NCBI GenBank assembly: GCA_037893245.1
Contig: JBAIAA010001545.1
Span: forward strand, 42,575 to 106,574
DNA from: Crossaster papposus
Lineage: Eukaryota > Echinodermata > Asteroidea > Velatida > Solasteridae
Reading direction: 5' to 3'
DNA: 64,000 nt
Shown here: positions 22,996 to 50,492 of the stretch, piece by piece
How the letters are laid out: every line of letters begins with the position of its first letter
Position numbering within the stretch: position 1 is the first letter of the stretch
Translations under genes and position numbers: made by a program
The notes under the pieces: generated by a model
What the model saw: the letters and a program-made list of their open reading frames with translations, nothing else
Told to the model about the DNA's origin: nothing
Databases searched by the model: none

Positions 22996-23005
22996 TTCTT
23001 TCTTT
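22996..23005 (+). repeat. 9-bp deletion junction in a monomer
   Basis: CATATTTCTT is joined to TCTTTCCC at 23000/23001, losing the nine bases ATGCACACT. Flanking units are exact. Confidence 0.92.
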
Positions 23006-26000
23006 CCCTTTACATATTTCTTATGCACACTTCTTTCCCTTTACATATTTCTTATGCACACTTCTTTCCCTTTACATATTTCTTATGCACACTTCTTTCC
23101 CTTTACATATTTCTTATGCACACTTCTTTCCCTTTACATATTTCTTATGCACACTTCTTTCCCTTTACATATTTCTTATGCACACTTCTTTCCCTTTACA
23201 TATTTCTTATGCACACTTCTTTCCCTTTACATATTTCTTATGCACACTTCTTTCCCTTTACATATTTCTTATGCACACTTCTTTCCCTTTACATATTTCT
23301 TATGCACACTTCTTTCCCTTTACATATTTCTTATGCACACTTCTTTCCCTTTACATATTTCTTATGCACACTTCTTTCCCTTTACATATTTCTTATGCAC
23401 ACTTCTTTCCCTTTACATATTTCTTATGCACACTTCTTTCCCTTTACATATTTCTTATGCACACTTCTTTCCCTTTACATATTTCTTATGCACACTTCTT
23501 TCCCTTTACATATTTCTTATGCACACTTCTTTCCCTTTACATATTTCTTATGCACACTTCTTTCCCTTTACATATTTCTTATGCACACTTCTTTCCCTTT
23601 ACATATTTCTTATGCACACTTCTTTCCCTTTACATATTTCTTATGCACACTTCTTTCCCTTTACATATTTCTTATGCACACTTCTTTCCCTTTACATATT
23701 TCTTATGCACACTTCTTTCCCTTTACATATTTCTTATGCACACTTCTTTCCCTTTACATATTTCTTATGCACACTTCTTTCCCTTTACATATTTCTTATG
23801 CACACTTCTTTCCCTTTACATATTTCTTATGCACACTTCTTTCCCTTTACATATTTCTTATGCACACTTCTTTCCCTTTACATATTTCTTATGCACACTT
23901 CTTTCCCTTTACATATTTCTTATGCACACTTCTTTCCCTTTACATATTTCTTATGCACACTTCTTTCCCTTTACATATTTCTTATGCACACTTCTTTCCC
24001 TTTACATATTTCTTATGCACACTTCTTTCCCTTTACATATTTCTTATGCACACTTCTTTCCCTTTACATATTTCTTATGCACACTTCTTTCCCTTTACAT
24101 ATTTCTTATGCACACTTCTTTCCCTTTACATATTTCTTATGCACACTTCTTTCCCTTTACATATTTCTTATGCACACTTCTTTCCCTTTACATATTTCTT
24201 ATGCACACTTCTTTCCCTTTACATATTTCTTATGCACACTTCTTTCCCTTTACATATTTCTTATGCACACTTCTTTCCCTTTACATATTTCTTATGCACA
24301 CTTCTTTCCCTTTACATATTTCTTATGCACACTTCTTTCCCTTTACATATTTCTTATGCACACTTCTTTCCCTTTACATATTTCTTATGCACACTTCTTT
24401 CCCTTTACATATTTCTTATGCACACTTCTTTCCCTTTACATATTTCTTATGCACACTTCTTTCCCTTTACATATTTCTTATGCACACTTCTTTCCCTTTA
24501 CATATTTCTTATGCACACTTCTTTCCCTTTACATATTTCTTATGCACACTTCTTTCCCTTTACATATTTCTTATGCACACTTCTTTCCCTTTACATATTT
24601 CTTATGCACACTTCTTTCCCTTTACATATTTCTTATGCACACTTCTTTCCCTTTACATATTTCTTATGCACACTTCTTTCCCTTTACATATTTCTTATGC
24701 ACACTTCTTTCCCTTTACATATTTCTTATGCACACTTCTTTCCCTTTACATATTTCTTATGCACACTTCTTTCCCTTTACATATTTCTTATGCACACTTC
24801 TTTCCCTTTACATATTTCTTATGCACACTTCTTTCCCTTTACATATTTCTTATGCACACTTCTTTCCCTTTACATATTTCTTATGCACACTTCTTTCCCT
24901 TTACATATTTCTTATGCACACTTCTTTCCCTTTACATATTTCTTATGCACACTTCTTTCCCTTTACATATTTCTTATGCACACTTCTTTCCCTTTACATA
25001 TTTCTTATGCACACTTCTTTCCCTTTACATATTTCTTATGCACACTTCTTTCCCTTTACATATTTCTTATGCACACTTCTTTCCCTTTACATATTTCTTA
25101 TGCACACTTCTTTCCCTTTACATATTTCTTATGCACACTTCTTTCCCTTTACATATTTCTTATGCACACTTCTTTCCCTTTACATATTTCTTATGCACAC
25201 TTCTTTCCCTTTACATATTTCTTATGCACACTTCTTTCCCTTTACATATTTCTTATGCACACTTCTTTCCCTTTACATATTTCTTATGCACACTTCTTTC
25301 CCTTTACATATTTCTTATGCACACTTCTTTCCCTTTACATATTTCTTATGCACACTTCTTTCCCTTTACATATTTCTTATGCACACTTCTTTCCCTTTAC
25401 ATATTTCTTATGCACACTTCTTTCCCTTTACATATTTCTTATGCACACTTCTTTCCCTTTACATATTTCTTATGCACACTTCTTTCCCTTTACATATTTC
25501 TTATGCACACTTCTTTCCCTTTACATATTTCTTATGCACACTTCTTTCCCTTTACATATTTCTTATGCACACTTCTTTCCCTTTACATATTTCTTATGCA
25601 CACTTCTTTCCCTTTACATATTTCTTATGCACACTTCTTTCCCTTTACATATTTCTTATGCACACTTCTTTCCCTTTACATATTTCTTATGCACACTTCT
25701 TTCCCTTTACATATTTCTTATGCACACTTCTTTCCCTTTACATATTTCTTATGCACACTTCTTTCCCTTTACATATTTCTTATGCACACTTCTTTCCCTT
25801 TACATATTTCTTATGCACACTTCTTTCCCTTTACATATTTCTTATGCACACTTCTTTCCCTTTACATATTTCTTATGCACACTTCTTTCCCTTTACATAT
25901 TTCTTATGCACACTTCTTTCCCTTTACATATTTCTTATGCACACTTCTTTCCCTTTACATATTTCTTATGCACACTTCTTTCCCTTTACATATTTCTTAT

Positions 26001-29000
26001 GCACACTTCTTTCCCTTTACATATTTCTTATGCACACTTCTTTCCCTTTACATATTTCTTATGCACACTTCTTTCCCTTTACATATTTCTTATGCACACT
26101 TCTTTCCCTTTACATATTTCTTATGCACACTTCTTTCCCTTTACATATTTCTTATGCACACTTCTTTCCCTTTACATATTTCTTATGCACACTTCTTTCC
26201 CTTTACATATTTCTTATGCACACTTCTTTCCCTTTACATATTTCTTATGCACACTTCTTTCCCTTTACATATTTCTTATGCACACTTCTTTCCCTTTACA
26301 TATTTCTTATGCACACTTCTTTCCCTTTACATATTTCTTATGCACACTTCTTTCCCTTTACATATTTCTTATGCACACTTCTTTCCCTTTACATATTTCT
26401 TATGCACACTTCTTTCCCTTTACATATTTCTTATGCACACTTCTTTCCCTTTACATATTTCTTATGCACACTTCTTTCCCTTTACATATTTCTTATGCAC
26501 ACTTCTTTCCCTTTACATATTTCTTATGCACACTTCTTTCCCTTTACATATTTCTTATGCACACTTCTTTCCCTTTACATATTTCTTATGCACACTTCTT
26601 TCCCTTTACATATTTCTTATGCACACTTCTTTCCCTTTACATATTTCTTATGCACACTTCTTTCCCTTTACATATTTCTTATGCACACTTCTTTCCCTTT
26701 ACATATTTCTTATGCACACTTCTTTCCCTTTACATATTTCTTATGCACACTTCTTTCCCTTTACATATTTCTTATGCACACTTCTTTCCCTTTACATATT
26801 TCTTATGCACACTTCTTTCCCTTTACATATTTCTTATGCACACTTCTTTCCCTTTACATATTTCTTATGCACACTTCTTTCCCTTTACATATTTCTTATG
26901 CACACTTCTTTCCCTTTACATATTTCTTATGCACACTTCTTTCCCTTTACATATTTCTTATGCACACTTCTTTCCCTTTACATATTTCTTATGCACACTT
27001 CTTTCCCTTTACATATTTCTTATGCACACTTCTTTCCCTTTACATATTTCTTATGCACACTTCTTTCCCTTTACATATTTCTTATGCACACTTCTTTCCC
27101 TTTACATATTTCTTATGCACACTTCTTTCCCTTTACATATTTCTTATGCACACTTCTTTCCCTTTACATATTTCTTATGCACACTTCTTTCCCTTTACAT
27201 ATTTCTTATGCACACTTCTTTCCCTTTACATATTTCTTATGCACACTTCTTTCCCTTTACATATTTCTTATGCACACTTCTTTCCCTTTACATATTTCTT
27301 ATGCACACTTCTTTCCCTTTACATATTTCTTATGCACACTTCTTTCCCTTTACATATTTCTTATGCACACTTCTTTCCCTTTACATATTTCTTATGCACA
27401 CTTCTTTCCCTTTACATATTTCTTATGCACACTTCTTTCCCTTTACATATTTCTTATGCACACTTCTTTCCCTTTACATATTTCTTATGCACACTTCTTT
27501 CCCTTTACATATTTCTTATGCACACTTCTTTCCCTTTACATATTTCTTATGCACACTTCTTTCCCTTTACATATTTCTTATGCACACTTCTTTCCCTTTA
27601 CATATTTCTTATGCACACTTCTTTCCCTTTACATATTTCTTATGCACACTTCTTTCCCTTTACATATTTCTTATGCACACTTCTTTCCCTTTACATATTT
27701 CTTATGCACACTTCTTTCCCTTTACATATTTCTTATGCACACTTCTTTCCCTTTACATATTTCTTATGCACACTTCTTTCCCTTTACATATTTCTTATGC
27801 ACACTTCTTTCCCTTTACATATTTCTTATGCACACTTCTTTCCCTTTACATATTTCTTATGCACACTTCTTTCCCTTTACATATTTCTTATGCACACTTC
27901 TTTCCCTTTACATATTTCTTATGCACACTTCTTTCCCTTTACATATTTCTTATGCACACTTCTTTCCCTTTACATATTTCTTATGCACACTTCTTTCCCT
28001 TTACATATTTCTTATGCACACTTCTTTCCCTTTACATATTTCTTATGCACACTTCTTTCCCTTTACATATTTCTTATGCACACTTCTTTCCCTTTACATA
28101 TTTCTTATGCACACTTCTTTCCCTTTACATATTTCTTATGCACACTTCTTTCCCTTTACATATTTCTTATGCACACTTCTTTCCCTTTACATATTTCTTA
28201 TGCACACTTCTTTCCCTTTACATATTTCTTATGCACACTTCTTTCCCTTTACATATTTCTTATGCACACTTCTTTCCCTTTACATATTTCTTATGCACAC
28301 TTCTTTCCCTTTACATATTTCTTATGCACACTTCTTTCCCTTTACATATTTCTTATGCACACTTCTTTCCCTTTACATATTTCTTATGCACACTTCTTTC
28401 CCTTTACATATTTCTTATGCACACTTCTTTCCCTTTACATATTTCTTATGCACACTTCTTTCCCTTTACATATTTCTTATGCACACTTCTTTCCCTTTAC
28501 ATATTTCTTATGCACACTTCTTTCCCTTTACATATTTCTTATGCACACTTCTTTCCCTTTACATATTTCTTATGCACACTTCTTTCCCTTTACATATTTC
28601 TTATGCACACTTCTTTCCCTTTACATATTTCTTATGCACACTTCTTTCCCTTTACATATTTCTTATGCACACTTCTTTCCCTTTACATATTTCTTATGCA
28701 CACTTCTTTCCCTTTACATATTTCTTATGCACACTTCTTTCCCTTTACATATTTCTTATGCACACTTCTTTCCCTTTACATATTTCTTATGCACACTTCT
28801 TTCCCTTTACATATTTCTTATGCACACTTCTTTCCCTTTACATATTTCTTATGCACACTTCTTTCCCTTTACATATTTCTTATGCACACTTCTTTCCCTT
28901 TACATATTTCTTATGCACACTTCTTTCCCTTTACATATTTCTTATGCACACTTCTTTCCCTTTACATATTTCTTATGCACACTTCTTTCCCTTTACATAT

Positions 29001-32000
29001 TTCTTATGCACACTTCTTTCCCTTTACATATTTCTTATGCACACTTCTTTCCCTTTACATATTTCTTATGCACACTTCTTTCCCTTTACATATTTCTTAT
29101 GCACACTTCTTTCCCTTTACATATTTCTTATGCACACTTCTTTCCCTTTACATATTTCTTATGCACACTTCTTTCCCTTTACATATTTCTTATGCACACT
29201 TCTTTCCCTTTACATATTTCTTATGCACACTTCTTTCCCTTTACATATTTCTTATGCACACTTCTTTCCCTTTACATATTTCTTATGCACACTTCTTTCC
29301 CTTTACATATTTCTTATGCACACTTCTTTCCCTTTACATATTTCTTATGCACACTTCTTTCCCTTTACATATTTCTTATGCACACTTCTTTCCCTTTACA
29401 TATTTCTTATGCACACTTCTTTCCCTTTACATATTTCTTATGCACACTTCTTTCCCTTTACATATTTCTTATGCACACTTCTTTCCCTTTACATATTTCT
29501 TATGCACACTTCTTTCCCTTTACATATTTCTTATGCACACTTCTTTCCCTTTACATATTTCTTATGCACACTTCTTTCCCTTTACATATTTCTTATGCAC
29601 ACTTCTTTCCCTTTACATATTTCTTATGCACACTTCTTTCCCTTTACATATTTCTTATGCACACTTCTTTCCCTTTACATATTTCTTATGCACACTTCTT
29701 TCCCTTTACATATTTCTTATGCACACTTCTTTCCCTTTACATATTTCTTATGCACACTTCTTTCCCTTTACATATTTCTTATGCACACTTCTTTCCCTTT
29801 ACATATTTCTTATGCACACTTCTTTCCCTTTACATATTTCTTATGCACACTTCTTTCCCTTTACATATTTCTTATGCACACTTCTTTCCCTTTACATATT
29901 TCTTATGCACACTTCTTTCCCTTTACATATTTCTTATGCACACTTCTTTCCCTTTACATATTTCTTATGCACACTTCTTTCCCTTTACATATTTCTTATG
30001 CACACTTCTTTCCCTTTACATATTTCTTATGCACACTTCTTTCCCTTTACATATTTCTTATGCACACTTCTTTCCCTTTACATATTTCTTATGCACACTT
30101 CTTTCCCTTTACATATTTCTTATGCACACTTCTTTCCCTTTACATATTTCTTATGCACACTTCTTTCCCTTTACATATTTCTTATGCACACTTCTTTCCC
30201 TTTACATATTTCTTATGCACACTTCTTTCCCTTTACATATTTCTTATGCACACTTCTTTCCCTTTACATATTTCTTATGCACACTTCTTTCCCTTTACAT
30301 ATTTCTTATGCACACTTCTTTCCCTTTACATATTTCTTATGCACACTTCTTTCCCTTTACATATTTCTTATGCACACTTCTTTCCCTTTACATATTTCTT
30401 ATGCACACTTCTTTCCCTTTACATATTTCTTATGCACACTTCTTTCCCTTTACATATTTCTTATGCACACTTCTTTCCCTTTACATATTTCTTATGCACA
30501 CTTCTTTCCCTTTACATATTTCTTATGCACACTTCTTTCCCTTTACATATTTCTTATGCACACTTCTTTCCCTTTACATATTTCTTATGCACACTTCTTT
30601 CCCTTTACATATTTCTTATGCACACTTCTTTCCCTTTACATATTTCTTATGCACACTTCTTTCCCTTTACATATTTCTTATGCACACTTCTTTCCCTTTA
30701 CATATTTCTTATGCACACTTCTTTCCCTTTACATATTTCTTATGCACACTTCTTTCCCTTTACATATTTCTTATGCACACTTCTTTCCCTTTACATATTT
30801 CTTATGCACACTTCTTTCCCTTTACATATTTCTTATGCACACTTCTTTCCCTTTACATATTTCTTATGCACACTTCTTTCCCTTTACATATTTCTTATGC
30901 ACACTTCTTTCCCTTTACATATTTCTTATGCACACTTCTTTCCCTTTACATATTTCTTATGCACACTTCTTTCCCTTTACATATTTCTTATGCACACTTC
31001 TTTCCCTTTACATATTTCTTATGCACACTTCTTTCCCTTTACATATTTCTTATGCACACTTCTTTCCCTTTACATATTTCTTATGCACACTTCTTTCCCT
31101 TTACATATTTCTTATGCACACTTCTTTCCCTTTACATATTTCTTATGCACACTTCTTTCCCTTTACATATTTCTTATGCACACTTCTTTCCCTTTACATA
31201 TTTCTTATGCACACTTCTTTCCCTTTACATATTTCTTATGCACACTTCTTTCCCTTTACATATTTCTTATGCACACTTCTTTCCCTTTACATATTTCTTA
31301 TGCACACTTCTTTCCCTTTACATATTTCTTATGCACACTTCTTTCCCTTTACATATTTCTTATGCACACTTCTTTCCCTTTACATATTTCTTATGCACAC
31401 TTCTTTCCCTTTACATATTTCTTATGCACACTTCTTTCCCTTTACATATTTCTTATGCACACTTCTTTCCCTTTACATATTTCTTATGCACACTTCTTTC
31501 CCTTTACATATTTCTTATGCACACTTCTTTCCCTTTACATATTTCTTATGCACACTTCTTTCCCTTTACATATTTCTTATGCACACTTCTTTCCCTTTAC
31601 ATATTTCTTATGCACACTTCTTTCCCTTTACATATTTCTTATGCACACTTCTTTCCCTTTACATATTTCTTATGCACACTTCTTTCCCTTTACATATTTC
31701 TTATGCACACTTCTTTCCCTTTACATATTTCTTATGCACACTTCTTTCCCTTTACATATTTCTTATGCACACTTCTTTCCCTTTACATATTTCTTATGCA
31801 CACTTCTTTCCCTTTACATATTTCTTATGCACACTTCTTTCCCTTTACATATTTCTTATGCACACTTCTTTCCCTTTACATATTTCTTATGCACACTTCT
31901 TTCCCTTTACATATTTCTTATGCACACTTCTTTCCCTTTACATATTTCTTATGCACACTTCTTTCCCTTTACATATTTCTTATGCACACTTCTTTCCCTT

Positions 32001-33905
32001 TACATATTTCTTATGCACACTTCTTTCCCTTTACATATTTCTTATGCACACTTCTTTCCCTTTACATATTTCTTATGCACACTTCTTTCCCTTTACATAT
32101 TTCTTATGCACACTTCTTTCCCTTTACATATTTCTTATGCACACTTCTTTCCCTTTACATATTTCTTATGCACACTTCTTTCCCTTTACATATTTCTTAT
32201 GCACACTTCTTTCCCTTTACATATTTCTTATGCACACTTCTTTCCCTTTACATATTTCTTATGCACACTTCTTTCCCTTTACATATTTCTTATGCACACT
32301 TCTTTCCCTTTACATATTTCTTATGCACACTTCTTTCCCTTTACATATTTCTTATGCACACTTCTTTCCCTTTACATATTTCTTATGCACACTTCTTTCC
32401 CTTTACATATTTCTTATGCACACTTCTTTCCCTTTACATATTTCTTATGCACACTTCTTTCCCTTTACATATTTCTTATGCACACTTCTTTCCCTTTACA
32501 TATTTCTTATGCACACTTCTTTCCCTTTACATATTTCTTATGCACACTTCTTTCCCTTTACATATTTCTTATGCACACTTCTTTCCCTTTACATATTTCT
32601 TATGCACACTTCTTTCCCTTTACATATTTCTTATGCACACTTCTTTCCCTTTACATATTTCTTATGCACACTTCTTTCCCTTTACATATTTCTTATGCAC
32701 ACTTCTTTCCCTTTACATATTTCTTATGCACACTTCTTTCCCTTTACATATTTCTTATGCACACTTCTTTCCCTTTACATATTTCTTATGCACACTTCTT
32801 TCCCTTTACATATTTCTTATGCACACTTCTTTCCCTTTACATATTTCTTATGCACACTTCTTTCCCTTTACATATTTCTTATGCACACTTCTTTCCCTTT
32901 ACATATTTCTTATGCACACTTCTTTCCCTTTACATATTTCTTATGCACACTTCTTTCCCTTTACATATTTCTTATGCACACTTCTTTCCCTTTACATATT
33001 TCTTATGCACACTTCTTTCCCTTTACATATTTCTTATGCACACTTCTTTCCCTTTACATATTTCTTATGCACACTTCTTTCCCTTTACATATTTCTTATG
33101 CACACTTCTTTCCCTTTACATATTTCTTATGCACACTTCTTTCCCTTTACATATTTCTTATGCACACTTCTTTCCCTTTACATATTTCTTATGCACACTT
33201 CTTTCCCTTTACATATTTCTTATGCACACTTCTTTCCCTTTACATATTTCTTATGCACACTTCTTTCCCTTTACATATTTCTTATGCACACTTCTTTCCC
33301 TTTACATATTTCTTATGCACACTTCTTTCCCTTTACATATTTCTTATGCACACTTCTTTCCCTTTACATATTTCTTATGCACACTTCTTTCCCTTTACAT
33401 ATTTCTTATGCACACTTCTTTCCCTTTACATATTTCTTATGCACACTTCTTTCCCTTTACATATTTCTTATGCACACTTCTTTCCCTTTACATATTTCTT
33501 ATGCACACTTCTTTCCCTTTACATATTTCTTATGCACACTTCTTTCCCTTTACATATTTCTTATGCACACTTCTTTCCCTTTACATATTTCTTATGCACA
33601 CTTCTTTCCCTTTACATATTTCTTATGCACACTTCTTTCCCTTTACATATTTCTTATGCACACTTCTTTCCCTTTACATATTTCTTATGCACACTTCTTT
33701 CCCTTTACATATTTCTTATGCACACTTCTTTCCCTTTACATATTTCTTATGCACACTTCTTTCCCTTTACATATTTCTTATGCACACTTCTTTCCCTTTA
33801 CATATTTCTTATGCACACTTCTTTCCCTTTACATATTTCTTATGCACACTTCTTTCCCTTTACATATTTCTTATGCACACTTCTTTCCCTTTACATATTT
33901 CTTAT

Positions 33906-33935
33906 GCACTTCTTTCCATCTTGCATATTTCTTAT
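33906..33935 (+). repeat. Rearranged 30-bp monomer
   Basis: The unit reads GCACTTCTTTCC then ATCTTGCATATTTCTTAT. It has lost one AC pair near the start, and CTTTACAT is replaced by ATCTTGCAT. It is the last break in the homogeneous half, about 2 kb before the variant-rich half begins. Confidence 0.9.
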
Positions 33936-36900
33936 GCACACTTCTTTCCCTTTACATATTTCTTATGCACACTTCTTTCCCTTTACATATTTCTTATGCA
34001 CACTTCTTTCCCTTTACATATTTCTTATGCACACTTCTTTCCCTTTACATATTTCTTATGCACACTTCTTTCCCTTTACATATTTCTTATGCACACTTCT
34101 TTCCCTTTACATATTTCTTATGCACACTTCTTTCCCTTTACATATTTCTTATGCACACTTCTTTCCCTTTACATATTTCTTATGCACACTTCTTTCCCTT
34201 TACATATTTCTTATGCACACTTCTTTCCCTTTACATATTTCTTATGCACACTTCTTTCCCTTTACATATTTCTTATGCACACTTCTTTCCCTTTACATAT
34301 TTCTTATGCACACTTCTTTCCCTTTACATATTTCTTATGCACACTTCTTTCCCTTTACATATTTCTTATGCACACTTCTTTCCCTTTACATATTTCTTAT
34401 GCACACTTCTTTCCCTTTACATATTTCTTATGCACACTTCTTTCCCTTTACATATTTCTTATGCACACTTCTTTCCCTTTACATATTTCTTATGCACACT
34501 TCTTTCCCTTTACATATTTCTTATGCACACTTCTTTCCCTTTACATATTTCTTATGCACACTTCTTTCCCTTTACATATTTCTTATGCACACTTCTTTCC
34601 CTTTACATATTTCTTATGCACACTTCTTTCCCTTTACATATTTCTTATGCACACTTCTTTCCCTTTACATATTTCTTATGCACACTTCTTTCCCTTTACA
34701 TATTTCTTATGCACACTTCTTTCCCTTTACATATTTCTTATGCACACTTCTTTCCCTTTACATATTTCTTATGCACACTTCTTTCCCTTTACATATTTCT
34801 TATGCACACTTCTTTCCCTTTACATATTTCTTATGCACACTTCTTTCCCTTTACATATTTCTTATGCACACTTCTTTCCCTTTACATATTTCTTATGCAC
34901 ACTTCTTTCCCTTTACATATTTCTTATGCACACTTCTTTCCCTTTACATATTTCTTATGCACACTTCTTTCCCTTTACATATTTCTTATGCACACTTCTT
35001 TCCCTTTACATATTTCTTATGCACACTTCTTTCCCTTTACATATTTCTTATGCACACTTCTTTCCCTTTACATATTTCTTATGCACACTTCTTTCCCTTT
35101 ACATATTTCTTATGCACACTTCTTTCCCTTTACATATTTCTTATGCACACTTCTTTCCCTTTACATATTTCTTATGCACACTTCTTTCCCTTTACATATT
35201 TCTTATGCACACTTCTTTCCCTTTACATATTTCTTATGCACACTTCTTTCCCTTTACATATTTCTTATGCACACTTCTTTCCCTTTACATATTTCTTATG
35301 CACACTTCTTTCCCTTTACATATTTCTTATGCACACTTCTTTCCCTTTACATATTTCTTATGCACACTTCTTTCCCTTTACATATTTCTTATGCACACTT
35401 CTTTCCCTTTACATATTTCTTATGCACACTTCTTTCCCTTTACATATTTCTTATGCACACTTCTTTCCCTTTACATATTTCTTATGCACACTTCTTTCCC
35501 TTTACATATTTCTTATGCACACTTCTTTCCCTTTACATATTTCTTATGCACACTTCTTTCCCTTTACATATTTCTTATGCACACTTCTTTCCCTTTACAT
35601 ATTTCTTATGCACACTTCTTTCCCTTTACATATTTCTTATGCACACTTCTTTCCCTTTACATATTTCTTATGCACACTTCTTTCCCTTTACATATTTCTT
35701 ATGCACACTTCTTTCCCTTTACATATTTCTTATGCACACTTCTTTCCCTTTACATATTTCTTATGCACACTTCTTTCCCTTTACATATTTCTTATGCACA
35801 CTTCTTTCCCTTTACATATTTCTTATGCACACTTCTTTCCCTTTACATATTTCTTATGCACACTTCTTTCCCTTTACATATTTCTTATGCACACTTCTTT
35901 CCCTTTACATATTTCGTATGCACACTTCTTTCCCTTTACATATTTCGTATGCACACTTCTTTCCCTTTACATTTTTCTTATGCACACTTCTTTCCCTTTA
36001 CATATTTCTTATGCACACTTCTTTCCCTTTACATATTTCTTATGCACACTTCTTTCCCTTTACATATTTCTTATGCACACTTCTTTCCCTTTACATATTT
36101 CTTATGCACACTTCTTTCCCTTTACATATTTCTTATGCACACTTCTTTCCCTTTACATATTTCTTATGCACACTTCTTTCCCTTTACATATTTCTTATGC
36201 ACACTTCTTTCCCTTTACATATTTCTTATGCACACTTCTTTCCCTTTACATATTTCTTATGCACAATTCTTTCCCTTTACATATTTCTTATGCACACTTC
36301 TTTCCCTTTACATATTTCGTATGCACACTTCTTTCCCTTTACATATTTCTTATGCACACTTCTTTCCCTTTACATATTTCCTATGCACACTTCTTTCCCT
36401 TTACATATTTCTTATGCACACTTCTTTCCCTTTACATATTTCTTATGCACACTTCTTTCCCTTTACATATTTCTTATGCACACTTCTTTCCCTTTACATA
36501 TTTCTTATGCACACTTCTTTCCCTTTACATATTTCTTATGCACACTTCTTTCTCTTTACATATTTCTTATGCACACTTCTTTCCCTTTACATATTTCTTA
36601 TGCACACTTCTTTCCCTTTACATATTTCTTATGCACACTTCTTTCCCTTTACATATTTCTTATGTACACTTCTTTCCCTTTACATATTTCTTAAGCACAC
36701 TTCTTTCCCTTTACATATTTCTTATGCACACTTCTTTCCCTTTACATATTTCTTATGCACACTTCTTTCCCTTTACATATTTCTTATGCACACTTCTTTC
36801 CCTTTACATATTTCTTATGCACACTTCTTTCCCTTTACATATGTCTTATGCACACCTCTTTCCCTTTACATATTTCTTATGCACACCTCTTTCCCTTTAC

Positions 36901-37433
36901 ATATTTCTTATGCACACTTCTTTCCCTTTACATATTTCTTATGCACACTTCTTTCCCTTTACATATTTCTTATGCACACTTCTTTCCCTTTACATATTTC
37001 TTATGCACACTTCTTTCCCTTTACATATTTCTTATGCACACTTCTTTCCCTTTACATATTTCTTATGCACACTTCTTTCCCTTTACATATTTCTTATGTA
37101 CACTTCTTTCCCTTTACATATTTCTTATGCACACTTCTTTCCCTTTACATATTTCTTATGCACACTTCTTTCCCTTTACATATTTCCTATGCACACTTCT
37201 TTCCCTTTACATATTTCTTATGCACACTTATTTCCCTTTACATATTTCTTATGCACACTTATTTCCCTTTACATATTTCTTATGCACACTTCTTTCCCTT
37301 TACATATTTCTTATGCACACTTCTTTCCCTTTACATATTTCTTATGCACACTTCTTTCCCTTTACATATTTCTTATGCACACTTCTTTCCCTTTACATAT
37401 TTCTTATGCACACTTCTTTCCCTTTACATATTT

Positions 37434-37660
37434 AACTCGAGGGCTTGTCCCGACATCATGTGTTTATTTCTTATGCACACTTCTTTCCCTTTACATATTT
37501 CTTATGCACACTTCTTTCCCTTTACATATTTCTTATGCACACTTCTTTCCCTTTACATATTTCTTATGCACACTTCTTTCCCTTCACATATTTCTTATGC
37601 ACACTTCTTTCCCTTTACATATTTAACTCGAGGGCTTGTCCCGACATCATGTGTTTATTT
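37434..37660 (+). repeat. BB pair 1: two allele B inserts, 191 bp apart
   Basis: Inserts at 37434-37469 and 37625-37660 are both allele B (TTGTCCCGACATCATG, CTCGAG). Five units lie in each repeat period (36 + 5x31 = 191). The T-to-C marker giving CCCTTCACAT is at 37585, +151 from the first insert. After the second insert, TTATAC (G to A) is at 37728, +103. This is the first insert pair of the diverged half. Confidence 0.93.
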
Positions 37661-37929
37661 CTTATGCACACTTCTTTCCCTTTACATATTTCTTATGCAC
37701 ACTTCTTTCCCTTTACATATTTCTTATACACACTTCTTTCCCTTTACATATTTCTTATGCACACTTCTTTCCCTTTACATATTTATTATGCACACTTCTT
37801 TCCCTTTACATATTTCTTATGCACACTTCTTTCCCTTTACATATTTCTTATGCACACTTCTTTCCCTTTACATATTTCTTATGCACACTTCTTTCCTTTT
37901 ACATATTTCTTATGCACACTTCTTTCCCT

Positions 37930-39735
37930 TTACATATTTCTTATGCACACTTCTTTCCCTTTACATATTTCTTATGCACACTTCTTTCCCTTTACATATT
38001 TCTTATGCACACTTCTTTCCCTTTACATATTTCTTATGCACACTTCTTTCCCTTTACATATTTCTTATGCACACTTCTTTCCCTTTACATATTTCTTATG
38101 CACACTTCTTTCCCTTTACATATTTCTTATGCACACTTCTTTCCCTTTACATATTTCTTATGCACACTTCTTTCCCTTTACATATTTCTTATGCACACTT
38201 CTTTCCCTTTACATATTTCTTATGCACACTTCTTTCCCTTTACATATTTCTTATGCACACTTCTTTCCCTTTACATATTTCTTATGCACACTTCTTTCCC
38301 TTTACATATTTCTTATGCACACTTCTTTCCCTTTACATATTTCTTATGCACACTTCTTTCCCTTTACATATTTCTTATGCACACTTCTTTCCCTTTACAT
38401 ATTTCTTATGCACACTTCTTTCCCTTTACATATTTCTTATGCACACTTCTTTCCCTTTACATATTTCTTATGCACACTTCTTTCCCTTTACATATTTCTT
38501 ATGCACACTTCTTTCCCTTTACATATTTCTTATGCACACTTCTTTCCCTTTACATATTTCTTATGCACACTTCTTTCCCTTTACATATTTCTTATGCACA
38601 CTTCTTTCCCTTTACATATTTCTTATGCACACTTCTTTCCCTTTACATATTTCTTATGCACACTTCTTTCCCTTTACATATTTCTTATGCACACTTCTTT
38701 CCCTTTACATATTTCTTATGCACACTTCTTTCCCTTTACATATTTCTTATGCACACTTCTTTCCCTTTACATATTTCTTATGCACACTTCTTTCCCTTTA
38801 CATATTTCTTATGCACACTTCTTTCCCTTTACATATTTCTTATGCACACTTCTTTCCCTTTACATATTTCTTATGCACACTTCTTTCCCTTTACATATTT
38901 CTTATGCACACTTCTTTCCCTTTACATATTTCTTATGCACACTTCTTTCCCTTTACATATTTCTTATGCACACTTCTTTCCCTTTACATATTTCTTATGC
39001 ACACTTCTTTCCCTTTACATATTTCTTATGCACACTTCTTTCCCTTTACATATTTCTTATGCACACTTCTTTCCCTTTACATATTTCTTATGCACACTTC
39101 TTTCCCTTTACATATTTCTTATGCACACTTCTTTCCCTTTACATATTTCTTATGCACACTTCTTTCCCTTTACATATTTCTTATGCACACTTCTTTCCCT
39201 TTACATATTTCTTATGCACACTTCTTTCCCTTTACATATTTCTTATGCACACTTCTTTCCCTTTACATATTTCTTATGCACACTTCTTTCCCTTTACATA
39301 TTTCTTATGCACACTTCTTTCCCTTTACATATTTCTTATGCACACTTCTTTCCCTTTACATATTTCTTATGCACACTTCTTTCCCTTTACATATTTCTTA
39401 TGCACACTTCTTTCCCTTTACATATTTCTTATGCACACTTCTTTCCCTTTACATATTTCTTATGCACACTTCTTTCCCTTTACATATTTCTTATGCACAC
39501 TTCTTTCCCTTTACATATTTCTTATGCACACTTCTTTCCCTTTACATATTTCTTATGCACACTTCTTTCCCTTTACATATTTCTTATGCACACTTCTTTC
39601 CCTTTACATATTTCTTATGCACACTTCTTTCCCTTTACATATTTCTTATGCACACTTCTTTCCCTTTACATATTTCTTATGCACACTTCTTTCCCTTTAC
39701 ATATTTCTTATGCACACTTCTTTCCCTTTACATAT
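37930..39735 (+). repeat. Consensus-only tract inside the diverged half
   Basis: Nearly 60 units between the CCTTTTAC variant near 37896 and the ATTATG variant near 39737 read as exact consensus. In other copies of this block family (for example 46557, 48928, 61656) CCTTTTAC is followed one unit later by CTGTCCC. Here CTGTCCC is absent. A local expansion of clean units within an older block is the simplest reading. Confidence 0.8.
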
Positions 39736-40295
39736 TTATTATGCACACTTCTTTCCCTTTACATATTTATTATGCACACTTCTTTCCCTTTACATATTTC
39801 TTATGCACACTTCTTTCCCTTTACATATTTCTTATGCACACTTCTTTCCCTTTACATATTTCGTATGCACACTTCTTTCCCTTTACATATTTCTTATGCA
39901 CACTTCTTTCCCTTTACATATTTCTTATGCACACTTCTTTCCCTTTACATATTTCTTATGCACACTTCTTTCCCTTTACATATTTCTTATGCACACTTCT
40001 TTCCCTTTACATATTTCTTATGCACACTTCTTTCCCTTTACATATTTCTTATGCACACTTCTTTCCCTTTACATATTTCTTATGCACACTTATTTCCCTT
40101 TACATATTTCTTATGCACACTTATTTCCCTTTACATATTTCTTATGCACACTTCTTTCCCTTTACATATTTCTTATGCACACTTCTTTCCCTTTACATAT
40201 TTCTTATGCACACTTCTTTCCCTTTACATATTTCTTATGCACAATTCTTTCCCTTTACATATTTCTTATGCACACTTCTTTCCCTTTACATATTT

Positions 40296-40331
40296 AACTC
40301 GAGGGCTTGTCCCGACATCATGTGTTTATTT
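40296..40331 (+). repeat. Insert, allele B (starts a B2 block)
   Basis: 36 bp, CTCGAG and TTGTCCCGACATCATG, in the standard position. It is 2,671 bp (36 + 85x31) after the previous insert. It is followed at +75 by ATGCAAAC (C to A at 40371), the mark of the B2 block family. Confidence 0.94.
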
Positions 40332-42439
40332 CTTATGCACACTTCTTTCCCTTTACATATTTCTTATGCAAACTTCTTTCCCTTTACATATTTCTTATGC
40401 ACACTTCTTTCCCTTTACATATTTCTTATGCACACTTCTTTCCCTTTACATATTTCTTATGCACACTTCTTTCCCTTTACATATTTCTTATGCACACTTC
40501 TTTCCCTTTACATATTTCTTATGCACACTTCTTTCCCTTTACATATTTCTTATGCACACTTCTTTCCCTTTACATATTTCGTATGCACACTTCTTTCCCT
40601 TTACATATTTCGTATGCACACTTCTTTCCCTTTACATATTTCTTATGCACACTTCTTTCCCTTTACATATTTCGTATGCACACTTCTTTCCCTTTACATA
40701 TTTCTTATGCACACTTCTTTCCCTTTACATATTTCTTATGCACACTTCTTTCCCTTTACATATTTCTTATGCACACTTCTTTTCCTTTACATATTTCCTA
40801 TGCACACTTCTTTCCCTTTACATATTTCTTATGCACACTTCTGTCCCTTTACATATTTCTTATGCACACTTCTTTCCCTTTACATATTTCTTATGCACAC
40901 TTCTTTCCCTTTACATATTTTTTATGCACACTTCTTTCCCTTTACATATTTCTTATGCACACTTCTTTCCCTTTACATATTTCTTATGCACACTTCTTTC
41001 CCTTTACATATTTCTTATGCACACTTCTTTCCCTTTACATATTTCTTATGCACACTTCTTTCCCTTTACATATTTCTTATGCACACTTCTTTCTCTTTAC
41101 ATATTTCTTATGCACACTTCTTTCCCTTTACATATTTCTTATGCACACTTCTTTCCCTTTACATATTTCTTATGCACACTTATTTCCCTTTACATATTTC
41201 TTATGCACACTTCTTTCCCTTTACATATTTCTTATGCACACTTCTTTCCCTTTACATATTTCTTATGCACACTTCTTTCCCTTTACATATTTCTTATGCA
41301 CACTTCTTTCCCTTTACATATTTCTTATGCACACTTCTTTCCCTTTACATATTTCTTATGCACACTTCTTTCCCTTTACATATTTCTTATGCACACTTCT
41401 TTCCCTTTACATATTTCTTATGCACACTTCTTTCCCTTTACATATTTCTTATGCACACTTCTTTCCATTTACATATTTCTTATGCACACTTCTTTCCCTT
41501 TACATATTTCTTATGCACACTTCTTTCCCTTTACATATTTCTTATGCACACTTCTTTCCCTTTACATATTTCTTATGCACACTTCTTTCCCTTTACATAT
41601 TTCTTATGCACACTTCTTTCCCTTTACATATTTCTTATGCACACTTCTTTCCCTTTACATATTTCTTATGCACACTTCTTTCCCTTTACATATTTCCTAT
41701 GCACACTTCTTTCCCTTTACATATTTCTTATGCACACTTCTTTCCCTTTACATATTTCTTATGCACACTTCTTTCCCTTTACATATTTCTTATGCACACT
41801 TCTTTCCCTTTACATATTTCTTATGCACACTTCTTTCCCTTTACATATTTCTTATGCACACTTCTTTCCCTTTACATATTTCTTATGCACACTTCTTTCC
41901 CTTTACATATTTCTTATGCACACTTCTTTCCCTTTACATATTTCTTATGCACACTTCTTTCCCTTTACATATTTCTTATACACACTTCTTTCCCTTTACA
42001 TATTTCTTATGCACACTTCTTTCCCTTTACATATTTATTATGCACACTTCTTTCCCTTTACATATTTCTTATGCACACTTCTTTCCCTTTACATATTTCT
42101 TATGCACACTTCTTTCCTTTTACATATTTCTTATGCACACTTCTGTCCCTTTACATATTTCTTATGCACACTTCTTTCCCTTTACATATTTCTTATGCAC
42201 ACTTCTTTCCCTTTACATATTTCTTATGCACACTTCTTTCCCTTTACATATTTCTTATGCACACTTCTTTCCCTTTACATATTTCTTATGCACACTTCTT
42301 TCCCTTTACATATTTCTTATGCACACTTCTTTCCCTTTACATATTTCTTATGCACACTTCTTTCCCTTTACATATTTCTTATGCACACTTCTTTCCCTTT
42401 ACATATTTCTTATGCACACTTCTTTCCCTTTACATATTT
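40296..42439 (+). repeat. B2-family higher-order block, copy 1
   Basis: It begins with an allele B insert. Shared markers are ATGCAAAC at +75, TTTTCCTTTAC at +487, then CCTATG and CTGTCCC in the next units. The same markers at the same offsets follow the inserts at 53045 and 58229. Later in the block TTATACAC (near 41989), ATTATG and CTGTCCC recur, resembling the tail of the BB-linked block. The block ends at the allele A insert at 42440. Confidence 0.82.
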
Positions 42440-42475
42440 AACTCGAGGGCTTGTTCCCACATCATGTGTTTATTT
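42440..42475 (+). repeat. Insert, allele A (starts an A1 block)
   Basis: 36 bp, CTCGAG and TTGTTCCCACATCATG. Followed by CACACCTC (T to C at 42518, +78) and TATTCACAC (G to T at 42605, +165), the A1 marks. Confidence 0.94.
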
Positions 42476-43746
42476 CTTATGCACACTTCTTTCCCTTTAC
42501 ATATTTCTTATGCACACCTCTTTCCCTTTACATATTTCTTATGCACACTTCTTTCCCTTTACATATTTCTTATGCACACTTCTTTCCCTTTACATATTTC
42601 TTATTCACACTTCTTTCCCTTTACATATTTCTTATGCACACTTCTTTCCCTTTACATATTTCTTATGCACACTTCTTTCCCTTTACATATTTCTTATGCA
42701 CACTTCTTTCCCTTTACATATTTCTTATGCACACTTCTTTCCCTTTACATATTTCTTATGTACACTTCTTTCCCTTTACATATTTCTTATGCACACTTCT
42801 TTCCCTTTACATATTTCTTATGCACACTTCTTTCCCTTTACATATTTCTTATGCACACTTCTTTCCGTTTACATATTTCTTATGCACACTTCTTTCCCTT
42901 TACATATTTCTTATGCACACTTCTTTCCCTTTACATATTTCTTATGCACACTTCTTTCCCTTTACATATTTCTTATGCACACTTCTTTCCCTTTACATAT
43001 TTCTTATGCACACTTCTTTCCCTTTACATATTTCTTATGCACACTTCTTTCCCTTTACATATTTCTTATGCACACTTCTTTCCCTTTACATATTTCTTAT
43101 GCACACTTCTTTCCCTTTACATATTTCTTATGCACACTTCTTTCCCTTTACATATTTCTTATGCACACTTCTTTCCCTTTACATATTTCTTATGCACACT
43201 TCTTTCCCTTTACATATTTCTTATGCACACTTCTTTCCCTTTACATATTTCTTATGCACACTTCTTTCCCTTTACATATTTCTTATGCACACTTCTTTCC
43301 CTTTACATATTTCTTATGCACACTTCTTTCCCTTTACATATTTCTTATGCACACTTCTTTCCCTTTACATATTTCCTATGCACACTTCTTTCCCTTTACA
43401 TATTTCTTATGCACACTTCTTTCCCTTTACATATTTCTTATGCACACTTCTTTCCCTTTACATATTTCTTATGCACACTTCTTTCCGTTTATATATTTCT
43501 TATGCACATTTCTTTCCCTTTACATATTTCTTATGCACACTTCTTTCCCTTTACATATTTCTTATGCACACTTCTTTCCCTTTACATATTTCTTATGCAC
43601 ACTTCTTTCCCTTTACATATTTCCTATGCACACTTCTTTCCCTTTACATATTTCTTATGCACACTTCTTTCCCTTTACATATTTCTTATGCACACTTCTT
43701 TCCCTTTACATATTTCTTATGCACACTTCTTTCCCTTTACATATTT
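42440..43746 (+). repeat. A1-family higher-order block, copy 1 (1,307 bp)
   Basis: Length is 36 + 41x31. Ordered markers are CACACCTC, TATTCACAC, ATGTACAC (about 42769), CCGTTTAC, CCTATG, CCGTTTATAT with ATGCACATTTC, and CCTATG. The following block (43747-45115) shares the first three and the last four, so the two look like a tandem duplicate. Confidence 0.87.
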
Positions 43747-43782
43747 AACTCGAGGGCTTGTTCCCACATCATGTGTTTATTT
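43747..43782 (+). repeat. Insert, allele A (starts an A1 block)
   Basis: 36 bp, allele A core. CACACCTC at 43825 (+78) and TATTCACAC at 43912 (+165) are at exactly the offsets seen after 42440. Confidence 0.94.
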
Positions 43783-45115
43783 CTTATGCACACTTCTTTC
43801 CCTTTACATATTTCTTATGCACACCTCTTTCCCTTTACATATTTCTTATGCACACTTCTTTCCCTTTACATATTTCTTATGCACACTTCTTTCCCTTTAC
43901 ATATTTCTTATTCACACTTCTTTCCCTTTACATATTTCTTATGCACACTTCTTTCCCTTTACATATTTCTTATGCACACTTCTTTCCCTTTACATATTTC
44001 TTATGCACACTTCTTTCCCTTTACATATTTCTTATGCACACTTCTTTCCCTTTACATATTTCTTATGTACACTTCTTTCCCTTTACATATTTCTTATGCA
44101 CACTTCTTTCCCTTTACATATTTCTTATGCACACTTCTTTCCCTTTACATATTTCTTATGCACACTTCTTTCCCTTTACATATTTCTTATGCACACTTCT
44201 TTCCCTTTACATATTTCTTATGCACACTTCTTTCCCTTTACATATTTCTTATGCACACTTCTTTCCCTTTACATATTTCTTATGCACACTTCTTTCCCTT
44301 TACATATTTCTTATGCACACTTCTTTCCCTTTACATATTTCGTATGCACACTTCTTTCCCTTTACATATTTCTTATGCACACTTCTTTCCCTTTACATAT
44401 TTCTTATGCACACTTCTTTCCCTTTACATATTTCTTATGCACACTTCTTTCCCTTTACATATTTCTTATGCACACTTCTTTCCCTTTACATATTTCTTAT
44501 GCACACTTCTTTCCCTTTACATATTTCTTATGCACACTTCTTTCCCTTTACATATTTCTTATGCACACTTCTTTCCCTTTACATATTTCTTATGCACACT
44601 TCTTTCCCTTTACATATTTCTTATGCACACTTCTTTCCCTTTACATATTTCTTATGCACACTTCTTTCCCTTTACATATTTCCTATGCACACTTCTTTCC
44701 CTTTACATATTTCTTATGCACACTTCTTTCCCTTTACATATTTCTTATGCACACTTCTTTCCCTTTACATATTTCTTATGCACACTTCTTTCCGTTTATA
44801 TATTTCTTATGCACATTTCTTTCCCTTTACATATTTCTTATGCACACTTCTTTCCCTTTACATATTTCTTATGCACACTTCTTTCCCTTTACATATTTCT
44901 TATGCACACTTCTTTCCCTTTACATATTTCCTATGCACACTTCTTTCCCTTTACATATTTCTTATGCACACTTCTTTCCCTTTACATATTTCTTATGCAC
45001 ACTTCTTTCCCTTTACATATTTCTTATGCACACTTCTTTCCCTTTACATATTTCTTATGCACACTTCTTTCCCTTTACATATTTCTTATGCACACTTCTT
45101 TCCCTTTACATATTT
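43747..45115 (+). repeat. A1-family higher-order block, copy 2 (1,369 bp)
   Basis: It is two units (62 bp) longer than copy 1. It shares CACACCTC, TATTCACAC, ATGTACAC, CCTATG, CCGTTTATAT/ATGCACATTTC and a second CCTATG. It has a private CGTATG near 44341. It ends at a BB pair where copy 1 ends at an A insert. Confidence 0.86.
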
Positions 45116-45342
45116 AACTCGAGGGCTTGTCCCGACATCATGTGTTTATTTCTTATGCACACTTCTTTCCCTTTACATATTTCTTATGCACACTTCTTTC
45201 CCTTTACATATTTCTTATGCACACTTCTTTCCCTTTACATATTTCTTATGCACACTTCTTTCCCTTCACATATTTCTTATGCACACTTCTTTCCATTTAC
45301 ATATTTAACTCGAGGGCTTGTCCCGACATCATGTGTTTATTT
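45116..45342 (+). repeat. BB pair 2: allele B inserts at 45116 and 45307
   Basis: 191 bp apart. CCCTTCACAT marker at 45267 (+151). A private CCATTTAC lies in the unit just before the second insert. TTATAC after the second insert is at 45472 (+165), two units later than in the other pairs, so a two-unit expansion occurred there. Confidence 0.93.
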
Positions 45343-46365
45343 CTTATGCACACTTCTTTCCCTTTACATATTTCTTATGCACACTTCTTTCCCTTTACAT
45401 ATTTCTTATGCACACTTCTTTCCCTTTACATATTTCTTATGCACACTTCTTTCCCTTTACATATTTCTTATACACACTTCTTTCCCTTTACATATTTCTT
45501 ATGCACACTTCTTTCCCTTTACATATTTCTTATGCACACTTCTTTCCCTTTACATATTTCTTATGCACACTTCTTTCCCTTTACATATTTCTTATGCACA
45601 CTTCTTTCCCTTTACATATTTCTTATGCACACTTCTTTCCCTTTACATATTTCTTATGCACACTTCTTTCCCTTTACATATTTCTTATGCACACTTCTTT
45701 CCCTTTACATATTTCTTATGCACACTTCTTTCCCTTTACATATTTCTTATGCACACTTCTTTCCCTTTACATATTTCTTATGCACACTTCTTTCCCTTTA
45801 CATATTTCTTATGCACACTTCTTTCCCTTTACATATTTCTTATGCACAATTCTTTCCCTTTACATATTTCTTATGCACACTTCTTTCCCTTTACATATTT
45901 CTTATGCACACTTCTTTCCCTTTACATATTTCCTATGCACACTTCTTTCCCTTTACATATTTCTTATGCACACTTCTTTCCCTTTACATATTTCTTATGC
46001 ACACTTCTTTCCCTTTACATATTTCTTATGCACACTTCTTTCCCTTTATATATTTCTTATGCACACTTCTTTCCCTTTACATATTTCTTATGCACACTTC
46101 TTTCCCTTTACATATTTCTTATGCACACTTCTTTCCCTTTACATATTTCTTACGCACACTTCTTTCCCTTTACATATTTCCTATGCACACTTCTTTCCCT
46201 TTACATATTTCTTATGCACACTACTTTCCCTTTACATATTTCTTATGCACACTTCTTTCCCTTTACATATTTCTTATGCACACTTCTTTCCCTTTACATA
46301 TTTCTTATGCACACTTCTTTCCCTTTACATATTTCTTATGCACACTTCTTTCCCTTTACATATTT
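45307..46365 (+). repeat. C-family higher-order block, copy 1 (1,059 bp)
   Basis: Ordered markers are GCACAATTC (about 45848), CCTATG (about 45932), TTTATATATT (about 46048), TTACGCAC (about 46153), CCTATG (about 46182) and CACTACTTTCC (about 46223). The same series in the same order is in 47993-48927. The end is a BB pair. Confidence 0.84.
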
Positions 46366-46592
46366 AACTCGAGGGCTTGTCCCGACATCATGTGTTTATT
46401 TCTTATGCACACTTCTTTCCCTTTACATATTTCTTATGCACACTTCTTTCCCTTTACATATTTCTTATGAACACTTCTTTCCCTTTACATATTTCTTATG
46501 CACACTTCTTTCCCTTCACATATTTCTTATGCACACTTCTTTCCCTTTACATATTTAACTCGAGGGCTTGTCCCGACATCATGTGTTTATTT
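46366..46592 (+). repeat. BB pair 3: allele B inserts at 46366 and 46557
   Basis: 191 bp apart. CCCTTCACAT at 46517 (+151). TTATAC after the second insert at 46660 (+103), then CATGATTATTATG near 46711. A private ATGAACAC lies near 46470. Confidence 0.93.
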
Positions 46593-47992
46593 CTTATGCA
46601 CACTTCTTTCCCTTTACATATTTCTTATGCACACTTCTTTCCCTTTACATATTTCTTATACACACTTCTTTCCCTTTACATATTTCTTATGCACACTTCT
46701 TTCCCTTTACATGATTATTATGCACACTTCTTTCCCTTTACATATTTCTTATGCACACTTCTTTCCCTTTACATATTTCTTATGCACACTTCTTTCCCTT
46801 TACATATTTCTTATGCACACTTCTTTCCTTTTACATATTTCTTATGCACACTTCTGTCCCTTTACATATTTCTTATGCACACTTCTTTCCCTTTACATAT
46901 TTCTTATGCACACTTCTTTCCCTTTACATATTTCTTATGCACACTTCTTTCCCTTTACATATTTCTTATGCACACTTCTTTCCCTTTACATATTTCTTAT
47001 GCACACTTCTTTCCCTTTACATATTTCTTATGCACACTTCTTTCCCTTTACATATTTCTTATGCACACTTCTTTCCCTTTACATATTTCTGATGCACACT
47101 TCTTTCCCTTTACATATTTCTTATGCACACTTCTTTCCCTTTACATATTTAACTCGAGGGCTTGTTCCCACATCATGTGTTTATTTCTTATGCACACTTC
47201 TTTCCCTTTACATATTTCTTATGCACACTTCTTTCCCTTTACATATTTCTTATGCACACTTCTTTCCCTTTACATATTTCTTATGCACACTTCTTTCCCT
47301 TTACATATTTCTTATGCACACTTCTTTCCCTTTACATATTTCTTATGCACACTTCTTTCCCTTTACATATTTCTTATGCACACTTCTTTCCCTTTACATA
47401 TTTCTTATGCACACTTCTTTCCCTTTACATATTTCTTATGCACACTTCTTTCCCTTTACATATTTCTTATGCACACTTCTTTCCCTTTACATATTTATTA
47501 TGCACACTTCTTTCCCTTTACATATTTCCTATGCACACTTTTTTCCCTTTACATATTTCTTATGCACACTTCTTTCCCTTTATATATTTCTTATGCACAC
47601 TTCTTTCCCTTTACATATTTCGTATGCACACTTCTTTCCCTTTACATATTTCTTATGCACACTTCTTTCCCTTTACATATTTCTTATGCACACTTCTTTC
47701 CCTTTACATATTTCTTATGCACACTTCTTTCCCTTTACATATTTCTTATGCACACTTCTTTCCCTTTACATATTTCTTATGCACACTTCTTTCCCTTTAC
47801 ATATTTCTTATGCACACTTCTTTCCCTTTACATATTTCTTATGCACACTTATTTCCCTTTACATATTTCTTATGCACACTTCTTTCCCTTTACATATTTC
47901 TTATGCACACTTCTTTCCCTTTACATATTTCTGATGCACACTTCTTTCCCTTTACATATTTCTTATGCACACTTCTTTCCCTTTACATATTT
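46557..47992 (+). repeat. Composite higher-order unit: 594-bp plus 842-bp blocks
   Basis: B insert, 594 bp, A insert at 47151, 842 bp, A insert at 47993. The first part carries TTATAC (+103), CATGATTATTATG (+156), CCTTTTAC, CTGTCCC and CTGATG 60 bp before the A insert. The second (A2 family) carries ATTATG, CCTATG, ACTTTTTTCC, TTTATATATT, CGTATG, CTTATTTCC and again CTGATG 60 bp before the next A insert. The layout recurs at 48928-50456 with three extra units. Confidence 0.86.
47151..47186 (+). repeat. Insert, allele A (A2 type)
   Basis: 36 bp, TTGTTCCCACATCATG. A CTGATG variant (G at 47091) lies exactly 60 bp upstream. The CACACCTC mark of A1 inserts is absent and the first nine or so units downstream are consensus. 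Confidence 0.94.
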
Positions 47993-48028
47993 AACTCGAG
48001 GGCTTGTTCCCACATCATGTGTTTATTT
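47993..48028 (+). repeat. Insert, allele A (A2 upstream junction)
   Basis: 36 bp, allele A core. CTGATG has its G at 47933, again 60 bp upstream. Downstream runs into C-family markers. Confidence 0.94.
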
Positions 48029-48927
48029 CTTATGCACACTTCTTTCCCTTTACATATTTCTTATGCACACTTCTTTCCCTTTACATATTTCTTATGCACA
48101 CTTCTTTCCCTTTACATATTTCTTATGCACACTTCTTTCCCTTTACATATTTCTTATGCACACTTCTTTCCCTTTACATATTTCTTATGCACACTTCTTT
48201 CCCTTTACATATTTCTTATGCACACTTCTTTCCCTTTACATATTTCTTATGCACACTTCTTTCCCTTTACATATTTCTTATGCACACTTCTTTCCCTTTA
48301 CATATTTCTTATGCACACTTCTTTCCCTTTACATATTTCTTATGCACACTTCTTTCCCTTTACATATTTCTTATGCACAATTCTTTCCCTTTACATATTT
48401 CTTATGCACACTTCTTTCCCTTTACATATTTCTTATGCACACTTCTTTCCCTTTACATATTTCCTATGCACACTTCTTTCCCTTTACATATTTCTTATGC
48501 ACACTTCTTTCCCTTTACATATTTCTTATGCACACTTCTTTCCCTTTACATATTTCTTATGCACACTTCTTTCCCTTTATATATTTCTTATGCACACTTC
48601 TTTCCCTTTACATATTTCTTATGCACACTTCTTTCCCTTTACATATTTCTTATGCACACTTCTTTCCCTTTACATATTTCTTACGTACACTTCTTTCCCT
48701 TTACATATTTCCTATGCACACTTCTTTCCCTTTACATATTTCTTATGCACACTACTTTCCCTTTACATATTTCTTATGCACACTTCTTTCCCTTTACATA
48801 TTTCTTATGCACACTTCTTTCCCTTTACATATTTCTTATGCACACTTCTTTCCCTTTACATATTTCTTATGCACACTTCTTTCCCTTCACATATTTCTTA
48901 TGCACACTTCTTTCCCTTTACATATTT
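47993..48927 (+). repeat. C-family higher-order block, copy 2 (935 bp)
   Basis: It carries GCACAATTC (about 48379), CCTATG, TTTATATATT, TTACGTAC (copy 1: TTACGCAC), CCTATG and CACTACTTTCC in the order of 45307-46365. It starts at an A insert where copy 1 starts at a B insert, so the left parts differ by recombination. Near the end CCCTTCACAT sits at 48888, 40 bp before the B insert, exactly as inside BB pairs. Confidence 0.84.
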
Positions 48928-48963
48928 AACTCGAGGGCTTGTCCCGACATCATGTGTTTATTT
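48928..48963 (+). repeat. Insert, allele B (orphan second half of a BB pair)
   Basis: 36 bp, TTGTCCCGACATCATG. CCCTTCACAT lies 40 bp upstream (48888) and TTATAC 103 bp downstream (49031), the marks of the second insert of a BB pair. No B insert lies 191 bp upstream. The first insert was probably lost by unequal exchange. Confidence 0.92.
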
Positions 48964-49521: not shown

Positions 49522-49557
49522 AACTCGAGGGCTTGTTCCCACATCATGTGTTTATTT
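49522..49557 (+). repeat. Insert, allele A (A2 type)
   Basis: 36 bp, allele A core, with CTGATG (G at 49462) 60 bp upstream and consensus units downstream. Confidence 0.94.
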
Positions 49558-50456: not shown

Positions 50457-50492
50457 AACTCGAGGGCTTGTTCCCACATCATGTGTTTATTT
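50457..50492 (+). repeat. Insert, allele A (A2 upstream junction)
   Basis: 36 bp, allele A core, with CTGATG (G at 50397) 60 bp upstream. The next insert is 656 bp away (36 + 20x31). The interval holds CCTTTTAC, CTGTCCC and CTGATG, the right half of a 594-type block. Confidence 0.94.

Follow-up and report, generated by a model that had tools for sequence, protein, structure and literature searches.

Organization of the array

The window, i.e. the whole stretch of 64,000 nucleotides that was analysed, consists of one 31-bp satellite throughout (1-64000; TRF: period 31, 2,060.8 copies, 97% matches). The TRF result describes copies of a single unit that follow each other head to tail over many kilobases, and the array is satellite DNA. 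Both ends of the window fall inside it. Our parse divided the 64,000 bases into 2,031 pieces: 1,797 canonical 31-mers, 197 other 31-mers and 37 pieces of other length. Every parsed unit lies on a single strand, and the reverse-strand unit is absent from the 64-kb window. The array comprises a near-monomorphic domain on the left and a variant-rich domain on the right, the latter composed of an edge zone and a mosaic:

1..35894, + strand: near-monomorphic 31-bp satellite domain, 1,157 pieces, 1,147 of them canonical
35895..35956, + strand: step, with the first two variant units (T22G twice, at bases 35,916 and 35,947)
35895..37289, + strand: variant-rich edge zone, 45 units with 16 variants, not matched elsewhere in the window by any duplicate that exceeds the shuffle threshold
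37290..63981, + strand: higher-order mosaic of 9- to 68-unit blocks at many lags with the same variant order (short uncovered stretches, 40 units in total)
37920..39717, + strand: 58-unit pure island within the mosaic

The array has a strong strand asymmetry (1-64000), with a pyrimidine-rich + strand and a GC skew of about -0.8 on the left and from -0.81 to -0.71 on the right. The unit carries a small dyad (CATA...TATG; 1-64000). Folding of two units as single-stranded DNA gave -1.8 and -2.6 kcal/mol on the two strands (z about -3.6); the hairpins are weak, yet they outdo most shuffles. The CENP-B box consensus had 0 matches on either strand of the whole window, which says little because many centromeric satellites lack this box.

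The exact 31-bp unit had 0 matches in viral_contigs and genome_contigs, collections of viruses, prokaryotes and plasmids in which a eukaryotic relative would not show. A blastn search of 37,200-37,800 against plasmids and phages returned no match. Sequence strings of the array were not found in the papers searched, nor was a paper matching phrases for a 31-bp satellite or repeat.

The step at 35.9 kb

Non-canonical pieces account for 10 of the 1,157 pieces (0.9%) left of 35,895 vs 224 of the 874 (25.6%) to the right, where 650 pieces are exactly canonical. In a two-rate model the log-likelihood rises most, by 170.7, when the change point is put at the unit that begins at 35,895; positions 35,709-35,895 lie within 2 log-likelihood units of the optimum and 35,368-35,926 within 5. 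The slope of variant density on the right side was +0.14 +/- 0.10 logit per 10 kb, or -0.02 +/- 0.10 logit per 10 kb if the pure island was left out, and neither estimate is clearly nonzero. The first-pass annotation had described an abrupt step rather than a gradient near 35.9 kb, with variants from base 35,916 on. This step is real, its first variant unit begins at 35,895, and the altered base is indeed 35,916. Since the units just before it, 63 in number and spanning 33,942-35,894, are all pure, the true location of the step could be anywhere in 33,942-35,895.

Duplication inflates the right-hand count, and therefore types and singletons were also counted once. Each of the 35 one-substitution types, counted once, occurs on the right (chance probability 1.5e-13). 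The single-copy one-substitution units, 14 in number, are likewise confined to the right (7.5e-6). Without the one such unit beside a length change, 13 remain, again all on the right (1.7e-5). These P values are descriptive, as the split point was taken from the same data and units were treated as independent. An origin of the contrast solely from duplication was rejected, because singletons and once-counted types still differ.

The near-monomorphic domain

The left domain consists of eight pure runs of 9, 80, 179, 118, 105, 242, 351 and 63 units, the longest of which corresponds to 10.9 kb; another one measures 7.5 kb. After neighbouring irregular pieces had been merged, the 10 non-canonical pieces grouped into seven loci:

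286..320, + strand: unique irregular unit with a 4-bp duplication (TATG)
2801..2865, + strand: unique 65-bp unit with a diverged insert, 3 edits from the right-hand form R2
8415..8481, + strand: unique 67-bp unit with a diverged insert, 2 edits from R2
12140..12195, + strand: unique complex change, a unit with one substitution and, after it, a 25-bp unit lacking 6 bp
15451..15475, + strand: unique 25-bp unit with a 6-bp deletion
22978..22999, + strand: unique 22-bp unit with a 9-bp deletion
33881..33941, + strand: unique complex change, the final marker ahead of the step

All of these are unique length or complex changes. Substituted 31-mers occur at three places (286, 12140 and 33881), each directly adjoining a length change, and the number of isolated substitutions is 0. 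The claim that no isolated substitution lies left of the step is thus borne out, although the seven irregular loci do exist there. None of the non-canonical piece types is common to the right, and 0 of 10 recur, so that recurring variant units, the mark of a higher-order repeat, were not found on the left.

The two domains also differ in the kind of change. Substitution-only changes make up 0 of 7 left loci vs 44 of 50 right types (P 6.5e-6). In this count two right-hand units beside a length change were at first included as substitution types; with these dropped, the comparison is 42 of 48 vs 0 of 7 (P 8.5e-6). Among right-hand singletons, 17 of 21 are substitution-only, compared with 0 of 7 left loci (P 0.0003). 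An earlier singleton test, restricted to one-substitution units, had given 14 of 23 (P 0.007).

The variant-rich domain

More than half of the variant types on the right (27 of 50) recur, many of them in order. As an example, G26A is followed by C21A (or A17G+T18A+C21A), C9T, T5G and then an insert unit. Sequencing noise was considered as a source of the right-hand variants and rejected, because the variants recur in order.

The best duplicate segment scored 45.1 vs a maximum of 14.2 in 30 shuffles. At a score of 14, 49 self-matching segments were listed, ten of which are the pure island shifted on itself by lags of 1 to 10 units. Duplicates include 789 of the 874 right-hand units; 60 of these belong to the pure island and the following C21A pair, where a mere shift produces the match, and without them coverage is 729 of 814. 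The right side therefore fits the definition of a higher-order repeat array, with several lags and no single regular period. Three duplicate pairs of 35, 29 and 22 units are free of mismatches, and some blocks are identical over ~1 kb. Copying on the right side is thus recent as well, and it proceeded in blocks of tens of units. Unlike the mosaic proper, the edge zone contains no units with duplicates above the shuffle threshold.

Pooled over 12 of the 14 best segment pairs, 22 of 423 units are mismatched, which predicts ~30 substitutions on the left if both sides were of equal age; this expectation is approximate, since the 12 pairs were hand-chosen from the 14 best of 49 segments and overlap one another. 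The two pairs left out at first have lags of 395 (11 of 68 mismatched) and 448 (1 of 15). With all 14 best pairs, 34 of 506 units are mismatched and ~39 left substitutions are predicted, where 0 isolated ones were observed.

The mosaic also contains some private changes: an insert unit with a substitution (45287-45353), a 13-bp piece followed by a changed unit (54518-54561), a 68-bp insert unit (58209-58276) and a 32-bp unit preceded by a changed unit (59486-59548). These rare changes are possibly young mutations.

The variants noted every few units from 35916 on are not uniformly distributed, as the 58 pure units of the island show. This island exceeds the longest pure run in 20,000 permutations (maximum 53 units). 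The unit immediately before it is C9T, a type that in 9 of its 10 other occurrences precedes T5G (or T5G+C29A). The island is a hint that patterned sequence can give way to runs of pure units. In appearance it is a miniature of the left domain within the right one.

The 36-bp insert

A 36-bp insert is found in 28 copies on the right and two on the left (2801 and 8415, see above). The right-hand insert units are 67 or 68 bp long and fall into 16 of R1 type and 12 of R2 type, the first and the last being:

37414..37480, + strand: first right-hand insert unit (R1)
63356..63422, + strand: last of the 28 right-hand insert units (R1)

When the insert and the 11 bases after it were compared, all 12 R2 copies were identical, as were 15 of the 16 R1-type copies, the odd one having 2 edits. 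The left inserts at 2801 and 8415 are 5 and 4 edits away from R1 and differ from each other by 4. As they are nearer to R2 (3 and 2 edits) than to R1, R2 is likely the older form, judging from these sequences. Their divergence from R2 also means that the left is not simply new.

The two markers therefore disagree. By the insert, of which the left has two copies, the left holds older material, and by the unit it looks younger. A plain layering of young against old does not yield this conflict. Local homogenisation by single units round surviving relics would yield it, and so would a consensus in which units were corrected and inserts were not.

The insert ends in ATTT and follows ATTT, which resembles a target-site duplication. 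CTCGAG is present in all 30 copies (37414-63422, 2801-2865, 8415-8481). Three local alignments gave no significant likeness of the insert to the unit, as a diverged copy would have (P 0.34 to 0.54), and 0 pairs of inverted repeats were found round the first two right-hand inserts (37,400-37,700). The insert could derive from an element inserted long ago or be a piece of a longer ancestral unit.

Proposed origin of the step

It is rather likely that the step separates two regions of a single satellite array, probably eukaryotic to judge from its type, each with its own mode of copying. We observe the step itself, a pure domain and a mosaic on its two sides, and unique markers of length type; how the copying proceeded, and in which order, is inferred from these. 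In the right domain, marker variants (the 27 recurring types) and the 36-bp insert would have been in place before the stretch that bore them was multiplied, tens of units at a time, by out-of-register repair or exchange (break-induced replication or unequal crossover); the higher-order mosaic would be the outcome. In the left domain, only the canonical unit would have been amplified or homogenised over at least 36 kb, a process that would erase point variants and leave a few length variants and insert relics between the pure runs. This would need copying or conversion of one or very few units at a time. The left homogenisation probably postdates the average right-hand duplication. Satellites are proposed to expand by unequal exchange, gene conversion, rolling circles or break-induced replication (reviewed in PMC12321929).

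Three observations speak against this proposal. The left marks are all of length type or complex, which a plain young array should not show, the inserts on the left have diverged further than those on the right, and the edge zone at 35,895-37,289 fits neither the pure domain nor the mosaic. The mechanism was also simulated in a toy model with two windows per simulated array. With block copying as the sole process, 2 of 360 windows reached a gain of at least 170; once single-unit bursts were added, 101 of 720 did. Under the full criteria (gain 170, one side <1%, the other >20%, a pure side of at least 500 units), 1 of 360 windows scored without bursts and 3 of 720 when they were included. An initial, smaller run, in which bursts had 1-3-unit templates and the shorter side had to hold at least 500 units, had given 0 of 108 and 1 of 108. 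We regard the model as a plausibility check only; it does not discriminate for the full pattern, and block copying alone could still produce it.

The length-type nature of the left marks could also reflect a repair process that keeps the left pure by erasing substitutions but not length differences, or a domain stitched together from pure blocks joined out of phase. The marks would then be end-joining scars and trapped insert relics, and the step would be the edge of the zone where the process acts rather than an age boundary. We consider this tentative and unlikely. A similarly low probability is assigned to the possibility that over-correction of the consensus made or greatly sharpened the step. 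According to it, true but sparse left substitutions were outvoted by reads from elsewhere in the array, and longer indels, inserts and substitutions next to indels survived. Those are the classes that a majority correction would be expected to spare, and the largest pure run (351 units, 10.9 kb) is within the usual length of long reads, as assembly would need; over-correction is moreover a stated risk in satellite arrays in parts of PMC12016036. However, reads with a variant density like that of the right (25% of units) should be easily distinguished, and the right side kept its 14 single-copy one-substitution units. We argue that over-correction should strip only variants that were already sparse and should not turn 25% into zero on one side while leaving it intact on the other. 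As correction should have removed only rare variants, the step itself should stand. Correction may thus have sharpened the step, and the last few sparse substitutions on the left may have been lost to it, but it should not have created the step.

The first-pass annotation had suggested that the step is a recent amplification front that meets an older layer, or else an assembly join or an over-polished consensus. The front is in keeping with amplification or homogenisation by single units on the left, but the older layer is not supported in this form. Its full form, a recently amplified left layer abutting an older, diverged right layer as in layered centromeres, would explain a step without a significant gradient and the 0 isolated left substitutions where ~30 to 39 would be expected at the average age of the right-hand duplications. 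We nevertheless find it quite improbable: the right-hand variants were mostly multiplied by block duplication within a higher-order mosaic whose 22-, 29- and 35-unit pairs are without mismatch, the inserts on the left are the more diverged copies (two copies only), the left irregularities are not substitutions, and the pure island sits within the supposedly older side. That two separate arrays were joined during assembly at 33.9-35.9 kb is highly improbable. The 63 pure units before the step hold nothing that ties both sides together, but the unique marker at 33,881-33,941 is just 1.95 kb away from the first variant unit. Ordinary long reads would be expected to span this gap, and a join within it would presumably need chimeric reads or a gross error. 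The insert family is present on both sides, and the 10.9-kb and 7.5-kb pure runs further left are the riskier places. Given the marker at this distance, a join exactly at the step appears less likely from the sequence; we are less sure of how long the extended pure runs really are.

The adjacent domains of this one satellite bear opposite signatures: one pure with length or complex marks, the other patterned with mostly substitutions. This contrast lets one ask which copying process acts where in an array. It also poses the question of how far biology and consensus correction each contribute to the purity of assembled satellites, and we see the locus as a case to test rather than as a result.

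Comparison with known satellite systems

The array resembles the layered human alpha-satellite, as described in parts of PMC12321929 and PMC11062924, in that homogeneous and more variant domains of one family are adjacent and in that higher-order repeats, and possibly layers, occur. The monomer is ~171 bp long there and 31 bp here. In human centromeres the youngest and most homogeneous part is the higher-order array, as stated in sections of PMC12321929; here, in contrast, the homogeneous part is without detectable higher-order structure and the variant part has it. Of the stepwise divergence from a young core that defines a layered centromeric array, one step is seen, and the insert divergence and the recent duplications on the right contradict a simple age order.

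The centromeric satellites Chio1 and Chio2 of Chionographis japonica (23 and 28 bp) are alike in forming long arrays of very short monomers with a higher-order cluster, following the portions of PMC10264360 that deal with them; this likeness is one of description. Forward and reverse arrays are mixed in that species (PMC10264360), unlike the single strand observed here.

The Arabidopsis CEN180 satellite shares with our array the block duplications of similar unit number and the local homogenisation. In the account given in parts of PMC12321929, CEN180 evolves by in-frame indels of 1-31 monomers and short gene conversion, which account for its megabase-scale higher-order structures. These indels are precise and in frame (PMC12321929), whereas the left-hand markers of the array described here include out-of-frame length changes.
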